A stretch of 64,000 nt of DNA from an uncultured Schlesneria sp. (lineage in GTDB: Bacteria > Planctomycetota > Planctomycetia > Planctomycetales > Planctomycetaceae): NCBI GenBank assembly GCA_903834925.1, contig CAILLA010000215.1, positions 1-64,000 on the forward strand. Direction: 5' to 3'. The notes beneath the pieces are model-generated. The model searched no databases, had not been told where the DNA came from, and saw only the letters and a program-made list of their open reading frames with translations. Positions 55,589-64,000 of the stretch are shown here, piece by piece. The translations under genes and the position numbers were made by a program. Numbering within the stretch: position 1 is the first letter of the stretch; every line of letters starts with the position of its first letter.

Positions 55589-56221
55589 ATGGGAACGCTG
55601 GAAATCGTCAAATGGCTAGCAGATGCATGCTATGGGTTTCTGGCGCTCAATTTTCTGTGGGGACTGAGCCGTGTCGTTCTGGTTTGGAGACGTCTCAATC
55701 AGCTTTCCTTCCGTTCGTTAAAGGCGGAAACAGAATTTGTCGACGACCTTGAGGGTTTGTTGAATTCGCGTCAGTACAAAGAAGCGGCAGAACGTTGCGA
55801 TTTTGATTTTCGCGCACTGCCGCGTCTTTGTTTGCTGATGCTCATCAATCGTACTCAGCCGTTTCATCAATTGCGGCAAACGATTTCTTCGAATGTACAA
55901 CGACATATTATTGGTGATCTGGACGATCACATGGGGTCTCTTGTGACCGTTATTAAAAGCGGACCTTTACTGGGTCTGTTCGGAACGGTTTTGGGCATGA
56001 TGGCCGCATTTGGACGGATTGGAACAGGCGAAAAAGTGCAGCCGTCGCAGATCGCTGACGAAATCAGTGTTGCGCTGATCTGTACGGCGATGGGCTTGGC
56101 CACAGCGATCCCCCTGGGTTACATCCTGTCGTACTTTAGTATCAAACTTCGCACCTTGCAGGACTCACTGGAATCCAACGTCGCCCGGATTTTACAGCAC
56201 TTTCGTCATCACGAGGGTTAA
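55589..56221 (+). CDS. MotA/TolQ/ExbB proton channel family protein
   Basis: SGPLLGLFGTVLGMMAAFGRIGTGEKVQPSQIADEISVALICTAMGLATAIPLGYILSYF. Confidence 0.94.
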   Translation: MGTLEIVKWLADACYGFLALNFLWGLSRVVLVWRRLNQLSFRSLKAETEFVDDLEGLLNSRQYKEAAERCDFDFRALPRLCLLMLINRTQPFHQLRQTISSNVQRHIIGDLDDHMGSLVTVIKSGPLLGLFGTVLGMMAAFGRIGTGEKVQPSQIADEISVALICTAMGLATAIPLGYILSYFSIKLRTLQDSLESNVARILQHFRHHEG

Positions 56222-56224
56222 ACT

Positions 56225-56719
56225 ATGGATCGTCCCTCCGCTGGTCCACCTGCAACTCCTCTGGACGACGTCGACGAGCCCCTCTTCCCTCGCCGCCGAT
56301 CTCATAATGAAGCCAACTTCGATATCACAGCGATGATCGATTTGGTCTTCATGCTCAATATTTTTTTTCTGGTCACGACCGTTGTCACTGCGCAGGGAGA
56401 GATGGACCTTCCGGTCGTGCGGCATTGTATCCCGACAGATCCCGAAGAGTCGGCGTTGATCACACTGGTTTCGCAGAATCCCAATTCGGTAACTGTCTAT
56501 TTGGGAGATGGTCCTCAGGGCGAAGGGCTGACAGAACGAGAAGAACAGTTGCAGGCGGTCCGTCGTTCCGTCGAAGAAGGTTCGCGAGCGGGAAAAAAAA
56601 TTATCCTGCTCAAAGCAGAGCGGTCGGTTAAGCTGCGGGATGTGAAACGGATCGCCGCTGCGGCTACTCGGGACATCACAGGCATGGAACTACGGATGGC
56701 CGTGATCGAAAAGGAATGA
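56225..56719 (+). CDS. ExbD/TolR family protein
   Basis: NFDITAMIDLVFMLNIFFLVTTV, periplasmic domain; coupled to the ExbB gene. Confidence 0.93.
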   Translation: MDRPSAGPPATPLDDVDEPLFPRRRSHNEANFDITAMIDLVFMLNIFFLVTTVVTAQGEMDLPVVRHCIPTDPEESALITLVSQNPNSVTVYLGDGPQGEGLTEREEQLQAVRRSVEEGSRAGKKIILLKAERSVKLRDVKRIAAAATRDITGMELRMAVIEKE

Positions 56720-56725
56720 CTTGAA

Positions 56726-57355
56726 ATGGTCCTGTTCCGATGCCCCCAGTGCGATCGCCAATTGAAGTCGTATCCCGATCGCATCGGTCGGCAAACTCGC
56801 TGTCCTGAATGCCGCACGGTGTTCAAGATTCCTGGAGAATCGCCCGCAATACAGGGACAACGTTCGAAGCGGACATTCGTGGACGCAGAGGCGAACGAAG
56901 GGCGGATCTCCAAGCCAACCACGAAAATTAATCATGAAGAATTGATCGATATGACGGCGATGGTTGACATCGTCTTTTTTCTGTTGATCTTCTTCCTCGT
57001 CACATCCATGTCAGGCATTCAATCTTCAGCTCCGTTGCCGCGACCGGAATCAAACAACGATGAAGGAGCGGCGAGTAGCCGGCAGTCGGTCGATCCACAA
57101 CGAGACCCCAATGCCATCGTAGTCAAGATTGGAAAAGATGATTCGATTGAGATCGACGGCGTTCCCTATCGGGAAATCAGCGATCTGACCGACCGCTTGA
57201 TCAAATTGCGAAGTTCGGGTGGAGACGAGACAAGCATGCTTGTCCTGGGAGACGGCGATGCGAGCCACGGGGCCGCAGTCGCGGTACTCGACGCAGGATA
57301 CGAAGCGGGGATTAACAAACTGCAGCTGGCCGTCATTGACGATGGGCAGGAATGA
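56726..57355 (+). CDS. ExbD/TolR family protein with N-terminal zinc ribbon
   Basis: LFRCPQCDRQLKSYPDRIGRQTRCPECRTVFKIPG (MJ0042-like) then ELIDMTAMVDIVFFLLIFFLVTSM. Confidence 0.92.
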   Translation: MVLFRCPQCDRQLKSYPDRIGRQTRCPECRTVFKIPGESPAIQGQRSKRTFVDAEANEGRISKPTTKINHEELIDMTAMVDIVFFLLIFFLVTSMSGIQSSAPLPRPESNNDEGAASSRQSVDPQRDPNAIVVKIGKDDSIEIDGVPYREISDLTDRLIKLRSSGGDETSMLVLGDGDASHGAAVAVLDAGYEAGINKLQLAVIDDGQE

Positions 57356-57374: not shown

Positions 57375-60293
57375 TTAGGCTTCGGACTGGTTTCCAATCC
57401 CGCGTTCGATCGAAGGTTGACCAATGTTTTCGGCCACAGGGGGTGGCGAAGATTGTTCGCCATGTCTTCTCAGCGAGATCAGCGTCATGATCGCTGGTAA
57501 CACGACGACAGAGATCAGCAGGCAACTTCCGACACCGACTGACGATACAACGCCAATGCTCTTCAGGCCCCGATGCGGCGCAATGATCATGCTGCCGAAT
57601 CCGACCATGTTCGTAAAGGACGTCAGAATCAGCGAGTTGATCATGCTGGGCGACGACACGTAACGCCGGCCTGACTGTCGGCGATAATCGTGCATCACAT
57701 GGACTCCGTTATCCACGCCGATTCCGAGAATTAACGGCAGGATGATCAGGTTCGCAGGATTGAGATCAACTCCTAACAACCCCATTGTCCCCAGCATCAG
57801 AGCCGCACCGGCTAATGGTGGCAGCAAAGCCAAGGCGATGTTTCTCAGCCCTTCAAGGTCAACTATGGCAACAAGCACGATCGTTGTGATGACATAGGCG
57901 ATTCCAAGTTGTTCGTAGCCAAGCTGTTTTCCCATCGATTTTGCGATGTATGCCACCACAGCCACTCCCGCCATCGGCGCCAGGACCGCAATTAAAGTGT
58001 TACGCAGATTGAGAAAATCGAGCACCAGCACGAGATAGATCGCCAGTAGCGCATAGACTGCGACCCGTTTGTAACTTTGCCAGATTTGCTGTGACGCCTC
58101 GTAGTTCTGAAGCGGTACGCCAGTCACTTCGGGATCAACCTGACGGACGGCATTGACGAATTGTTCGAGTGGTTCGATATCCCAGATTTCGTATCGAGGG
58201 TGAATTTGCAGCGACCACCGACCCGGCCGAGCGAATCGCGAAACGACGGCAGAAGGGAGGTCCCCCAGAGTCACTGGCTCGGGGTTTGAAACCGCTTGCA
58301 GGCCCCGGAATCTCGCAAGAAGGTCGGCCTTCATCTGCATCTGATAGTCTGTCAAAATCGCGGTTTGCTGATCCATCGGCAGTCGGTCCAGCGATTCAAC
58401 GATTTGGGAGATCTGTTGTTGAATACTGGCGTTTGTCGAAGCGGGCGCCTCATCCAGCGATGCTGCAAAACGTTCTAACCTTTCGCGAATCAAGACGGGG
58501 TCAATGCTTCCCGCTTCGGGCCATTCGCTGGGAAGATCAGACAACAGCGCATGGATCCCTTGGATCAAAAGCGCTTTGTCCGACGGTTGCTGCGGCAGGA
58601 CCGAAGCGACTTCGTCCACGTGATGGACTTCAGGCAGTGCTTCAAACCGTTTCTTAAGATCGAGTGCCTCGGCAGGGCTGTTGGCCGTTGTGACCGCAAA
58701 CAACGTGCGGCTGTTTGGCTCATGCACCAGCCTTTTCTGCAGTTCAACCGATGGAATCCCATCCGCTTGCAGGTGAAGCAGGTTGTAATCGTACTTGACC
58801 CTCATCCCGTACCACGAAAGCCAAGCGATTAACGCAACCGATGTGACCGTGACGGCCAGCGGCCAGCGCGAAGTGACCTGGCTGATCACGTTTAACTTCA
58901 GCGGAGCTGGTAGACGTTTTGGGTCGGTATGGCGATCGACGAGCGAAATGCTTGACGGCATCACAAAAAATGCCGACAGAGCACAAAGCAGGATTCCCCC
59001 TCCGGCAATCATTCCAAGCTCGGCGATACCCAGAAAATCGGTCAGGATCGCACAAAAGAATGCCAATGAGGTTGTGGTGGCAGCGGTAAGAATCCCCGGC
59101 CCCACGTCTTGTGCCGTGGCGATCAATGCCGGACGCAGATCCTGCCCTTCATGACGAAATTGAAGATATTGGGACAAATACAAAATGGCATAATCGCTTC
59201 CCAACCCAACGAGCATTGTCACGAAGGAAACCGACAGGATATTCAAGTGCCCGACTGTCGCTGTTGCGAACCCGAATCCCAACGCCGTTCCAACGGCGAG
59301 CATTAACTGGCCGAGTAACGGGTGTTTCACCCCCCGAAATCCGACTACCAGTAACAGCCCGACGCCGCCGAAGGAAATGATCGACTGCCAGATCATTGAA
59401 TCCTGCGACGAACGCATTTCGTCCCGCTCAAGCGACGGAATCCCCGTGATTCCCAATTTGGCATGAGGATATTTGCGACTCGCTTCCGCCAGTAATGCTT
59501 CCATTCGATCGACCGATTTGTCCGTCCCGTCAAATCCGGTCGCCTTCTGTACCGGCTGAGCCTTCAGAAAACCCATCGTTCTTTTGTCATTGGTCAGGTA
59601 GTGAACCTCAGCCGCTTTTCCCAGCGATTGCTGGTCCATTGGCATGGTCAACTGCCAGGGTGAAACAAACTGATCGGGATTCTTAATGAATTGTGCCAGA
59701 CTTTGCACAAAGCCCTCTGCCACTCGTAACACTTCCGCTGTCGATTGAACATCACCCGATTCGACCGCACGAGCGACCTGCGGCTTAAGATTCGTAAAGA
59801 CCTGGTTCAGACTATACATCTGCCAGCGACCCTTCAGAATCGGGCCGAAGCTTTCGAGCCAGTTGATCAGACCGTCTAACTCTTTGGGCGACAGATACTG
59901 CAGCCCCTTCGACGCCAAACCTCGCTGATCGACCTTGTACAGCACGTCGCGAAAGAATTCGGGTTCGCTTTCAACCTGTGTTCCGAGTTCATCCAGGATC
60001 GCGTCGATTTCATCAGGTTCATCGGCTTCGACGACGACAACGATGTCATTGGAATCGCCAAAGTCTTTCGTATATTTGATCCACCGCTGCTGATAATCGG
60101 CTTTAGGATCAATCAGATCGGACCGATCCGTTTTGAATTTCAGGTAGAGTGCGGAATAGCCAGCGGACGCCGCTGCGAGCAATAGGACAAGAAACAGCGT
60201 CAAGCCGGGAGCGAGAGTCACCGTCGAGGTGATCGCCTTCAATAATCGAGTGACGAGTGCCCCTTGCGAGTGGTTTGAAACGTCGTCAGACAT
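57375..60293 (-). CDS. MMPL/RND family transporter (HpnN-like)
   Basis: Two repeats of 5-6 TMs with GLGSDYAILYLSQYLQFR and GIGVDNGVHVMHDYRRQ signatures. Confidence 0.9.
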   Translation of the reverse strand: MSDDVSNHSQGALVTRLLKAITSTVTLAPGLTLFLVLLLAAASAGYSALYLKFKTDRSDLIDPKADYQQRWIKYTKDFGDSNDIVVVVEADEPDEIDAILDELGTQVESEPEFFRDVLYKVDQRGLASKGLQYLSPKELDGLINWLESFGPILKGRWQMYSLNQVFTNLKPQVARAVESGDVQSTAEVLRVAEGFVQSLAQFIKNPDQFVSPWQLTMPMDQQSLGKAAEVHYLTNDKRTMGFLKAQPVQKATGFDGTDKSVDRMEALLAEASRKYPHAKLGITGIPSLERDEMRSSQDSMIWQSIISFGGVGLLLVVGFRGVKHPLLGQLMLAVGTALGFGFATATVGHLNILSVSFVTMLVGLGSDYAILYLSQYLQFRHEGQDLRPALIATAQDVGPGILTAATTTSLAFFCAILTDFLGIAELGMIAGGGILLCALSAFFVMPSSISLVDRHTDPKRLPAPLKLNVISQVTSRWPLAVTVTSVALIAWLSWYGMRVKYDYNLLHLQADGIPSVELQKRLVHEPNSRTLFAVTTANSPAEALDLKKRFEALPEVHHVDEVASVLPQQPSDKALLIQGIHALLSDLPSEWPEAGSIDPVLIRERLERFAASLDEAPASTNASIQQQISQIVESLDRLPMDQQTAILTDYQMQMKADLLARFRGLQAVSNPEPVTLGDLPSAVVSRFARPGRWSLQIHPRYEIWDIEPLEQFVNAVRQVDPEVTGVPLQNYEASQQIWQSYKRVAVYALLAIYLVLVLDFLNLRNTLIAVLAPMAGVAVVAYIAKSMGKQLGYEQLGIAYVITTIVLVAIVDLEGLRNIALALLPPLAGAALMLGTMGLLGVDLNPANLIILPLILGIGVDNGVHVMHDYRRQSGRRYVSSPSMINSLILTSFTNMVGFGSMIIAPHRGLKSIGVVSSVGVGSCLLISVVVLPAIMTLISLRRHGEQSSPPPVAENIGQPSIERGIGNQSEA

Positions 60294-60356: not shown

Positions 60357-61523
60357 TCATCGTTGTGCCTGCGTCAAATCATGATATCGATGTAACCCAG
60401 CGTTTTGACGGGCCAGCTTCTTGAGGAAGGAATCCGGACTTAAATCCGCCCCAATCCCAAATTCGACAACGTGAATCAAGGCTTTCCGCTTGTTGCCTCG
60501 CTTCAGATCAAAAAGGTCTTTGGCGCTCAATTCGGGTGCGTCCGCGTCAGTTAATAAGTAGATCACCTCAGGATCATAACTGAGCGCAAGTGATATCGCA
60601 CCCATTCGGTTGGTGCCCGAATCTGGCTGGATTCCGGTCAGGAATTGCTTGGCCAATCGCAGGTTGACCGAGGTCGCGGGCAACAGTCGGGTTCGTTCGC
60701 CCTGTCGATTCATCGTATGATTTGTCAGGTTAAAAAAGATCACCTGAAACTGCGACGTGGGCGTCAGTTCTTGCAGACTATCCCAGAGTTTCTGTCGTGC
60801 GATTTGCATGGCATCGTGCTGACGCATGCTCTCCGACGCATCAATCACATAGACGACCCGCTTGGCCGAGGCCTTAATGCCGAAGAAGCTTGTTTGATGC
60901 CCACCCGTTCCTGATGCGCCACCCTTTCCAGGTTCCTCTCCAGCACCTTGACCATCGGAATTGCCAGGATTCGACGCCAAGCCATTCCCATTTTCGTCAC
61001 TTGTTGATTTACCAGCAAATGCTGCCGGTTCTCGATTCTTGACCGTGGAAGAGTGCAGATCAGTCTGATTGAAATTGATTGACTCAATATTGTCTTGTTG
61101 ATTTCGATTTGCGACTTTCAATGACGAATGCAGTTCCGGATCGATCGGATTCGGATTCTCTTGCGTTGCCCCAAAGACGGTTTGCGGATCGGTTTCAGCC
61201 ACCGTCAGCAATCGCGGTTGTTCTTTTGCAGACTGCATTTCGACCGTTTTGTGAACCTCATTCGAACCGTCCGATTCTGCATCGGGGATCACCGAATCGG
61301 TGGCCCGCCCCCTGCCTCCGGGTTCTCCTGATCCTGCCGAACCTCCTGGAATCCAGGTTGCTGACCAGTTATCGCCATTCCCTGATTTGCCGTTTCCTTG
61401 GCCAGGCGAACGAAACTCGAAAAACTGCAGCAGGACAAACAGGACGAATGCGTGAAACGATAACGACACCAGCAACGTTTTTCGCCACGGTCTCGTGCGA
61501 ACCTTTCTCGCTGGGGCTGTCAT
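60357..61523 (-). CDS. vWA domain protein with N-terminal TonB-like membrane anchor
   Basis: RRVVYVIDASESMRQHDAM-like MIDAS (KRVVYVIDASESM); N-terminal KTLLVSLSFHAFVLFVLLQFFEF with SxxxH; Gly-rich linker; ORF opens at 61559. Confidence 0.88.
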   Translation of the reverse strand: MTAPARKVRTRPWRKTLLVSLSFHAFVLFVLLQFFEFRSPGQGNGKSGNGDNWSATWIPGGSAGSGEPGGRGRATDSVIPDAESDGSNEVHKTVEMQSAKEQPRLLTVAETDPQTVFGATQENPNPIDPELHSSLKVANRNQQDNIESINFNQTDLHSSTVKNREPAAFAGKSTSDENGNGLASNPGNSDGQGAGEEPGKGGASGTGGHQTSFFGIKASAKRVVYVIDASESMRQHDAMQIARQKLWDSLQELTPTSQFQVIFFNLTNHTMNRQGERTRLLPATSVNLRLAKQFLTGIQPDSGTNRMGAISLALSYDPEVIYLLTDADAPELSAKDLFDLKRGNKRKALIHVVEFGIGADLSPDSFLKKLARQNAGLHRYHDLTQAQR

Positions 61524-61788
61524 TTCAAGAACATCCTTCTGGTGCACTGGCTGTTTCAATTCGCCGAGATTCCTTCAATCGTCTCCTGGAACCGCAATTT
61601 GGGTAATCTTCCACATCTTCCACGTGTCTGGCTACCTCAAAACGACCAGATTTGCCCTCGGACATCAATGTCCCCACAAGATGCCAAATCCGCCTTTCGG
61701 CAACCTGCCAGTCAAGTTTTTGTAAAAACTCGTGTGGAATTTACGTAGCAAGCTCGATTCACTACTTGAATCGGTGCAAGTCCCGGTT

Positions 61789-61977
61789 CTATGATGCTGT
61801 GAACGCAAACCTCGACATGAAGTCACGTAAGCGAAAATGTCCGCCAACCTGAATGACGGGCAATCGGTCCCTTTCGAACTTTTCAGCCGAATTTGCCTTT
61901 CCACAAAAAGTCACTTCAACAACTGTCGCAAATACTATGGCAGAGAGTATAACCAGAGGATTCAACTTGATCTTCAC
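61789..61977 (-). CDS. Candidate small secreted protein
   Basis: MKIKLNPLVILSAIVFATVVEVTFCGKANSA-EKFERD resembles a signal peptide with AxA-like cleavage; only 62 aa. Confidence 0.3.
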   Translation of the reverse strand: MKIKLNPLVILSAIVFATVVEVTFCGKANSAEKFERDRLPVIQVGGHFRLRDFMSRFAFTAS

Positions 61978-62039
61978 GGACTTTGCTCAATAGCCGCACG
62001 CCAGGTCGGCGATTCCCATTACAAAACAGGAGCTGCTTC

Positions 62040-62858
62040 ATGCTTTCTACGACGAAACATCGTACTGTCCCAGTTTGGCTGATGATTGTTCTACTGACCG
62101 TTTCGATGGGAATCTTTTCACGGCCGATCATGGTTCATGCTCAGGCGGATGATGGTGCCAAACCCGCGTCATCGGAGCCCGCTGCAAAAACAGCTGACAG
62201 CCCCCGAAGCCAATCGATGTTGATGTGGATCATTCATACGTCTGGCTGGATCGGTGCGTTCATCCTGGCGATTTCCATTTACTTCATCGCGACGGTGATG
62301 CAGTTGTTTCTCGAATTGCGTTCCCCGGTCGTTGCTCCGCCCGAACTGATGGAAGAGTGTGAAGCCTTGCTGGTCAAACGCGACTTCAATGGCATCTATA
62401 AAGTTGCAAAAGAAAATACCAGTGAACTGGGACAATTGATCGCGACCGGAATGGTGGGGTTGTCCACGGGTCTCAGTGACGCCCGCGAAGCCATCGATCG
62501 TCAGGGTGAAGTCATCACCGTCGAAATGGAAAAACGGATCAGCATGCTCGCCGTGATTGGTACCCTGGGGCCACTGATCGGTCTGTTAGGAACTCTCAAA
62601 GGAATGATCGGAAGCTTCAGCGTCATCGCCATGTCGGATACGCAATTGAAGGCCAGTGAAGTCGCCGGTGGTATTTCCGAAGCTCTGGTGCTGACGTTTG
62701 AAGGGGTCGGACTGTCGGTTCCGGCAATCTACTTCTTCGCCCTGTTCAAGAATCGTGTCGCCAGCCTGAGCGTCCAGACGCTGAATGCAGCTGATGAATT
62801 TATTCGCCGCCTGCATGCTGCCGCACACAAGAAACCAACCACTGAAGCCGCTTCCTGA
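62040..62858 (+). CDS. MotA/TolQ/ExbB proton channel family protein with N-terminal signal/extension
   Basis: LAVIGTLGPLIGLLGTLKGMIGSFSVIAMSDTQLKASEVAGGISEALVLTFEGVGLSVPAIYFFALFKNR; ORF opens at 61983. Confidence 0.94.
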   Translation: MLSTTKHRTVPVWLMIVLLTVSMGIFSRPIMVHAQADDGAKPASSEPAAKTADSPRSQSMLMWIIHTSGWIGAFILAISIYFIATVMQLFLELRSPVVAPPELMEECEALLVKRDFNGIYKVAKENTSELGQLIATGMVGLSTGLSDAREAIDRQGEVITVEMEKRISMLAVIGTLGPLIGLLGTLKGMIGSFSVIAMSDTQLKASEVAGGISEALVLTFEGVGLSVPAIYFFALFKNRVASLSVQTLNAADEFIRRLHAAAHKKPTTEAAS

Positions 62859-62878
62859 AAATTATCGAGGAGGATGGA

Positions 62879-63334
62879 ATGTCAGATCATAATTCCGATA
62901 GAGCGGAACCGAACCTCACGCCACTGCTCGACATGGTCTTTCAATTGATCACGTTCTTTATGCTCGTGATCAATTTCAAAGGGGCGTCAATGGATCTGTC
63001 GTTGAAGCTGCCTGTGCTGGGGTCGGCTCGTCCGCTGGAACGGCATGGCAAGCTTGAACCACTCTTGCTCAACATTGACACCGATGGACGAGTGACCGTC
63101 CAGGGCAAAAAAATTGACGTCGAACAATTCATCACGAAAGAGGCCCGCGTCCTCAAGAATCAGTTACAGATTTTGGGAACACCGATCGAAAACGGAGAAT
63201 TACCCGTTCCGGTGATCGTTCGAGCCGACCGGTCGGCACCGTTTCATCTGGTCAACCGGATTCTGAAACTCTGTCAGGAACAAGGGTATCGCCAGTTCTC
63301 GTTGAGCGCGATGACGCGCGAGGAGAAACACTAA
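62879..63334 (+). CDS. ExbD/TolR family protein
   Basis: AEPNLTPLLDMVFQLITFFMLVINF; PVIVRADRSAPFHLVNRILKLCQEQGY. Confidence 0.92.
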   Translation: MSDHNSDRAEPNLTPLLDMVFQLITFFMLVINFKGASMDLSLKLPVLGSARPLERHGKLEPLLLNIDTDGRVTVQGKKIDVEQFITKEARVLKNQLQILGTPIENGELPVPVIVRADRSAPFHLVNRILKLCQEQGYRQFSLSAMTREEKH

Positions 63335-63335
63335 G

Positions 63336-63887
63336 ATGCAGCGCAGTCACAGCCAGCGCCGACGTCGACGCAAACGCGATCAGGGTTCGGTCGAGATGAA
63401 TCTCGCCGCCATGCTCGACATGGCGTTTCAGCTCTTGACGTTTTTCATCCTGACCTTTCGGCCCGCACCGATCGAAGGCCAATTGTCGCTGAATCTGCCT
63501 CCGCCAGTACCAGTCACGACCCCGGAAGCGAGTGCCACGGGTGGTACGGGGATCGAAAACGTTCTCACAATGGAAACATTGCATTTGCACGTTGTCGCCA
63601 ACGATCGAGGGGACGTTTCCGAATTGAGAGTCGAATTGAATCCTGTCGTTCAAGGCAAGCTGGACGAGGCGAACATTCAGCGTCTTGACCAGAATCTGCA
63701 TGCGAAATTTGCCGTGAAACAGATTCCGTTCGATCGGATTCAGATCGCCGTCGATGGCAGGCTTCGATACGGTGAACTGATGAAGATTATTGATGTCTGT
63801 CACCGTCAAAAACTGCCCGATGGTTCGGCCATGCAAAAAATCAGTTTTTCTGAAGTCGACGTCGGAGCAAGCTCCAGTCCGAAATGA
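63336..63887 (+). CDS. ExbD/TolR-like protein
   Basis: SVEMNLAAMLDMAFQLLTFFILTFRPAP; C-terminal RYGELMKIIDVCHRQKL. Confidence 0.88.
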   Translation: MQRSHSQRRRRRKRDQGSVEMNLAAMLDMAFQLLTFFILTFRPAPIEGQLSLNLPPPVPVTTPEASATGGTGIENVLTMETLHLHVVANDRGDVSELRVELNPVVQGKLDEANIQRLDQNLHAKFAVKQIPFDRIQIAVDGRLRYGELMKIIDVCHRQKLPDGSAMQKISFSEVDVGASSSPK

Positions 63888-63895
63888 GGTAGATC

Positions 63896-64000
63896 ATGCG
63901 CCGTTACACTGCTCGTCCCTACGGAGGTTCCGTCTCCGGCACGCGACTTTTGTCGATGCTGATGGCGATTCTTGTTCTTGGGATGCTCTATAATCGGTTG
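63896..64000 (+). CDS. Partial CDS, N-terminally TM-anchored protein (runs off window)
   Basis: ATG at 63896 opens MRRYTARPYGGSVSGTRLLSMLMAILVLGMLYNRL to the window end, directly after the ExbD gene. Confidence 0.6.
   Translation, partial: MRRYTARPYGGSVSGTRLLSMLMAILVLGMLYNRL

Follow-up and report, generated by a model that had tools for sequence, protein, structure and literature searches.

The window (the whole analysed stretch of 64,000 nucleotides) carries a gene for a membrane-anchored protein with a vWA domain, with genes for motor subunits of the ExbB/ExbD type on both sides of it. The features of the locus are as follows:

55589 to 57355, plus strand: second motor cluster of ExbB, ExbD and an ExbD with a zinc-ribbon-like N-terminus (Pfam)
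57375 to 60293, minus strand: HpnN-like RND lipid transporter, 972 aa (NCBIfam HpnN, E = 8.3e-156, below cut-off)
60357 to 61523, minus strand: coding sequence of the predicted vWA transducer, 388 aa, ATG at 61523 (open reading frame list, Pfam, starts of orthologues)
60366 to 60902, minus strand: vWA domain, residues 208–386 (Pfam VWA_3, AlphaFold2 Rossmann-like fold, Foldseek matches)
60828 to 60842, minus strand: MIDAS motif D228-A-S230-E-S232, completed by T304 and D326 (all five invariant in the alignment)
61350 to 61367, minus strand: D-box-like strand W53-SATW-I58, 29 residues past H24, whose order of hydrophobic and polar residues matches that of the D-box in TonB (PMC10907165)
61422 to 61484, minus strand: N-terminal transmembrane helix (AlphaFold2 helix 14–34)
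61452 to 61466, minus strand: S20-x3-H24, candidate TonB/TolA-like motor-binding motif (43/43 homologues, 0/171 control reading frames; invariant columns)
61524 to 61982: intergenic region that separates the vWA gene from the divergently oriented ExbB operon, an order kept in five relatives (L037–L041)
61983 to 62858, plus strand: motor subunit of the ExbB/TolQ type, reading frame listed with a TTG start (Pfam MotA_ExbB, E = 1e-22)
62879 to 63334, plus strand: ExbD subunit 1, transmembrane Asp present (Pfam ExbD, E = 4.4e-21)
63336 to 63887, plus strand: ExbD subunit 2, transmembrane Asp present (Pfam ExbD, E = 3.1e-12)
63896 to 64000, plus strand: start of p335, a 335-aa partner protein that runs to 64903 of the contig (L001:3897-4904)

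The orthologues of the vWA protein start with MITTARKV or MLTTARKV, which fits the ATG at 61523, and a TTG start at 61559 (12 additional amino acids) was dropped since the orthologues open at the ATG. The preliminary description had given the protein basic N-terminal residues, a transmembrane segment with S-x-x-x-H, a Gly/Ser/Asn-rich linker and a C-terminal vWA domain, and all of these were confirmed. The N-terminus is basic, residues 36–206 are Gly/Ser/Asn-rich and disordered in the AlphaFold2 model, and Pfam VWA_3 matches residues 222–377 (E = 1.8e-9). Pfam found no domain besides vWA in this protein and no TonB/TolA C-terminal domain. In the AlphaFold2 model, which was built from six sequences (the structure-prediction alignments were shallow, with 6 and 4 sequences), the domain at 208–386 is alpha/beta with pLDDT values mostly between 70 and 90, and Foldseek showed its similarity to solved vWA domains, e.g., CLCA1 (6pyo, target-normalised TM-score 0.79). 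Membership in the sortase-target family TIGR03788 was rejected, as the match covers the vWA domain only and reaches 48.6 bits against a cut-off of 551.65.

Homologous loci were collected across the order, and they yielded 43 vWA homologues and 171 other open reading frames with an N-terminal transmembrane segment. Ser-x3-His lies within the N-terminal hydrophobic segment of all 43 vWA homologues, always with an offset of +4 from Ser to His, and in none of the 171 control frames from the same loci; its occurrence in the vWA homologues exceeds chance. The alignment of 37 sequences, which share 25–76% identity with the query, showed that S20 and H24 are the sole invariant residues outside the vWA domain and the only ones in the first 200 residues, while within the domain D228, S230, S232, T304, D326 and six more residues are invariant. 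The conservation of Ser and His had been chosen beforehand as a point on which the preliminary description could fail; both residues proved invariant in orthologues as well as in distant homologues. The spacing is the same as in TonB (Ser16/His20) and TolA (Ser18/His22), and a structural precedent for the Ser/His contacts has been published (PMC12215075). Of the complete SHLS motif, the Leu and the last Ser are unconserved among the vWA homologues, and in Ton, too, these two positions show weaker conservation (PMC12215075).

The maximum-likelihood tree of the vWA domain groups the window protein with nine others (L037–L045) with support of 100/99, apart from the homologues linked to TPR genes. 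An ExbB gene is found nearby in 15 of the 43 homologous vWA loci, and the other 28 have none within the fetched flanks; with about seven ExbB genes per genome, well under one locus of 43 would be expected by chance, with the reservation that the loci share phylogenetic history. The 15 linked loci present three arrangements: divergent, co-directional (L044) and, in other genera, vWA-TPR-ExbB-ExbD(-ExbD). Within the clade of the window protein, seven of the ten tree rows show the pairing, and two gene orders occur: L001 and L037–L041 have the divergent one and L044 the co-directional one. No ExbB lies near the gene in L042, L043 and L045. The three nearest relatives, and likewise genomes G055 and G138, retain the divergent ExbB-ExbD-ExbD-p335 operon as a neighbour of the vWA gene; G070 has the same vWA and motor genes, but in co-directional order. 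In G043 about 445 kb separate the vWA gene from the p335 cassette. The linkage of orthologues to ExbBD, the other point on which the earlier proposal had been open to refutation, was thus found both in this clade and more widely. The gene had also been placed between two ExbB/ExbD clusters, which is true in this window (55589–57355 and 61983–63887), but only the cluster at 61983–63887 is a conserved neighbour.

Residues 53–58 (WSATWI) fit the pattern of the TonB D-box, the ExbD-binding strand, described by Loll et al. 2024 (PMC10907165). The distance from His is 29 residues, compared with 25 in E. coli TonB according to the D-box peptide coordinates. The pattern is found in nine of the ten members of the window clade, at +26 to +30 from His, and in 13 of the 37 sequences of the whole set, against 4.1 expected from shuffles. 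Homologues beyond the window clade mostly have a conserved RxVGI island in the D-box position, and the evidence for a D-box outside this clade is weak.

In the adjacent motor operon, orthologues suggest that ExbB starts at an ATG at about 62040 and not at the listed TTG. TolQ is its best NCBIfam model, and T204, T238 and P247 align with the channel residues of TolQ/ExbB (solved TolQ). The motor residues are intact, with Thr/Thr/Pro in ExbB and the transmembrane Asp in both ExbD subunits. TonB Ser16 and His20 touch Ser34 and Trp38 of ExbB (PMC12215075). In the comparison with solved structures the profile aligned TM2–TM3 only, with TM1 outside it, and mapping by eye suggests that S98, a TM1 Ser conserved in ExbB of this type, could match Ser34 and that the counterpart of Trp38 appears to be replaced by aliphatic or Met/Phe residues. 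The fourth gene product, p335, has no Pfam or NCBIfam match. Its predicted structure is of low confidence (mean pLDDT 46.7), and a Foldseek search with it yielded nothing beyond weak similarity to OB folds, without a hit at E <= 0.001; p335 can be described as a two-transmembrane protein with a possible OB-like domain. It is the fourth gene of an ExbB-ExbD-ExbD-p335 cassette in 20 of 20 other sampled loci, and in all 20 the cassette has no adjoining vWA gene, so it can do without such a neighbour; together with the 28 vWA loci that have no ExbB in the fetched flanks, this makes the pairing of the vWA protein with this motor not obligatory. Weaker relatives of p335 occur in almost every genome of the order.

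The HpnN-like gene follows 63 bp downstream in the same orientation as the vWA gene and separates the latter from the cluster at 55589–57355. Only the closest relatives share this adjacency, and for this reason a role of the vWA protein in envelope lipid or outer-membrane maintenance, at which this neighbour hints, is a guess. The motor cluster at 55589–57355 is missing beside HpnN in the three relatives closest to this genome; these retain only the type found at 61983–63887. Its ExbB is moreover, at 55589–57355, without the TM1 Ser found in the ExbB of the other cluster. On both grounds the 55589–57355 cluster was set aside as the cognate motor, although the recurrence of the two cassette types as neighbours in G101 and G130 leaves it some chance of being so. 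The ExbD at 56726–57355 has an N-terminal zinc-ribbon-like segment (MJ0042-type CxxC) with sub-threshold matches to PF13719 and TIGR02098. The two types of ExbB-ExbD-ExbD cassette lie close together in this genome and are again neighbours in G101 (L135:5333-9354, 36 bp apart) and, in convergent order, in G130 (L127:5945-12023).

The whole genome contains seven ExbB and nine ExbD genes. Searches of this 99.99% complete genome found neither TonB_C (PF03544) nor the Plug domain of TonB-dependent receptors (PF07715), while positive controls matched. Among 150 genomes of the order, TonB_C was found in 23 and Plug in 37, while the vWA protein as a query matched 148, a few of these matches being weak and possibly due to generic vWA domains. 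It is therefore unlikely that these motors serve canonical Ton import here, except through domains that have diverged beyond the reach of the models. The genome also encodes a vWA paralogue of the TPR-linked type without an adjacent motor (C245:60205-60792; L056:9697-10788), and a TPR-type ExbB/ExbD pair lies apart from it at C146 (L081). In G073, which belongs to the same genus, this type of vWA paralogue, a TPR-type motor and a TPR gene are found side by side. Judging from gene order, a vWA-TPR-motor operon seems to have been split in this genome (C245 vs C146).

With seven ExbB genes available, the vWA protein could be coupled to a different ExbBD motor, e.g., the TPR-type one at C146, and its adjacency to the present operon would then be incidental. 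Same-clade loci without a nearby ExbB and the distant cassette of G043 are in line with this, and Ton and Tol motors are able to replace one another in E. coli (PMC12215075). Against it, the pairing recurs in most rows of the window clade in two different gene orders, and the ExbB of the cluster at 55589–57355 does not have the TM1 Ser. We regard coupling to another motor as unlikely.

The vWA protein might also do without a motor and act as a membrane-anchored scaffold in adhesion or assembly, with SxxxH having some other role in the transmembrane helix. vWA domains are commonly passive, metal-dependent binding modules, and 28 of the 43 homologues have no motor gene nearby. However, a motor is present at the other 15 loci, His is costly in a transmembrane helix and yet Ser and His are the only invariant residues of the anchor, and their spacing is identical to that of TonB and TolA. 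A scaffold uncoupled from any motor is quite improbable.

Predicted force transducers with a vWA domain, the topology of TolA/TonB and an SHLS anchor have been described by Williams-Jones et al. 2025 (MBE msaf138, PMC12204202), Planctomycetes included. In the preliminary description the protein was taken for a new class of ExbBD-energised transducer with a vWA domain in place of the TonB C-terminal domain; the mechanism stands as the best reading on the comparative evidence, whereas the label of a new class does not, as such transducers with the SHLS anchor had already been reported from Planctomycetes. The window protein shares with them the transmembrane helix with Ser and His, here the Ser-x3-His part of SHLS, the disordered linker, here with the motor-box-like WSATWI, the vWA fold at the tip, and synteny with tolQ-like and paired tolR-like genes. 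The published gene set of the PVC bacteria is vWA-TPR-ExbB-ExbD(-ExbD), in which the TPR gene is frequent but not obligatory (PMC12204202). The window protein differs in having no TPR neighbour, its motor being the divergent ExbB-ExbD-ExbD-p335 operon, in its linker of about 170 residues, Gly/Ser/Asn-rich, compared with about 100, and in the separate position of its clade in the tree. The TPR-family gene (F2) had no match at the window locus or in the window clade, and it is present in 17 other vWA loci and as a split copy in L076. What is new here is the separate clade without a TPR gene that is tied to the p335-type motor cassette, together with the quantified invariance of Ser and His and the presence of a predicted vWA transducer in a genome without TonB and plug domains.

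The likeness to TonB of the Ton system consists of a single N-terminal transmembrane helix, S-x3-H, a D-box-like strand, an unstructured linker and adjacent ExbB/ExbD genes, while the vWA tip in place of the TonB C-terminal domain, the lack of a recognisable receptor plug in the genome and the unconserved Leu and final Ser of SHLS are different. TolA of the Tol-Pal system (TolQRA) has the same anchor motif and topology, and the adjacent ExbB is nearest to TolQ among the NCBIfam models; however, the window protein has no TolA/TonB tip, and no TolB or Pal genes were seen in the surrounding operon. A place in the second family of Williams-Jones et al., TPH-vWA, in which a membrane-tethered vWA protein adjoining a TolQ-like gene replaces ExbD and rotates inside the TolQ-like pentamer, would agree with the architecture and the ExbB-type neighbour, but this family is without SHLS, has a transmembrane Asp and has no ExbD genes nearby (PMC12204202), and the window protein, with SxxxH, no transmembrane Asp and two adjacent ExbD genes, is its reverse, so this reading has practically no chance of being right.

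Taken on comparative sequence evidence, the reading of the protein as a putative ExbBD-coupled transducer is well supported, and it is quite probable that the protein transmits force from the inner membrane, as a member of the proposed vWA class, and is powered by the ExbB-ExbD-ExbD motor encoded next to it. Judging from the invariant Ser and His and from the structures of TonB and TolA, S20 and H24 would dock on TM1 of ExbB in the way of TonB Ser16 and His20, and the periplasmic domains of ExbD may capture the WSATWI strand in the same way as the D-box of TonB. Proton flow would then turn the ExbD pair and pull the linker, and the vWA domain, probably through its metal site, would grip a putative partner in the outer membrane or the cell wall.

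A second family with the Ser/His anchor was found through genome G052, in which the gene after the p335 cassette encodes, in place of a vWA protein, a 333-aa Ser/His-anchored protein (L123:7862-8863). The C-terminal domain of this protein is apparently beta-rich and unrelated to vWA or TonB. Its homologues occur in 124 of the 150 genomes of the order, including the present one (C263:10948-11901; L156:8892-9905), and among 16 sequences His is invariant and Ser nearly so. The family had no match in Pfam, NCBIfam or the PDB sequences, and no motor adjoins it at the 15 other loci examined. It looks like another transducer with a swapped tip, and it merits a separate study.

Tentatively, and with the balance leaning somewhat against it, planctomycetes may largely have exchanged the TonB/TolA tips for different C-terminal domains while keeping a shared Ser/His anchor: a vWA tip, of which the window clade would form a system of its own, linked to the motor of the ExbB-ExbD-ExbD-p335 cassette, and a previously undescribed beta-rich tip present in the majority of the order's genomes. 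On this view the ExbBD motors of planctomycetes would power processes in the envelope that have nothing to do with TonB-dependent import. The vWA transducer has a match in most of the sampled genomes of the order, and canonical TonB and plug domains are sporadic there. The locus itself is a compact unit of one predicted transducer, one motor, two ExbD subunits and one partner (p335), in a genome without TonB. Should the force-transducer reading hold, transducers of the TonB type would have exchangeable tips, and the metal site of the vWA domain would offer a handle for finding a partner in the outer membrane.
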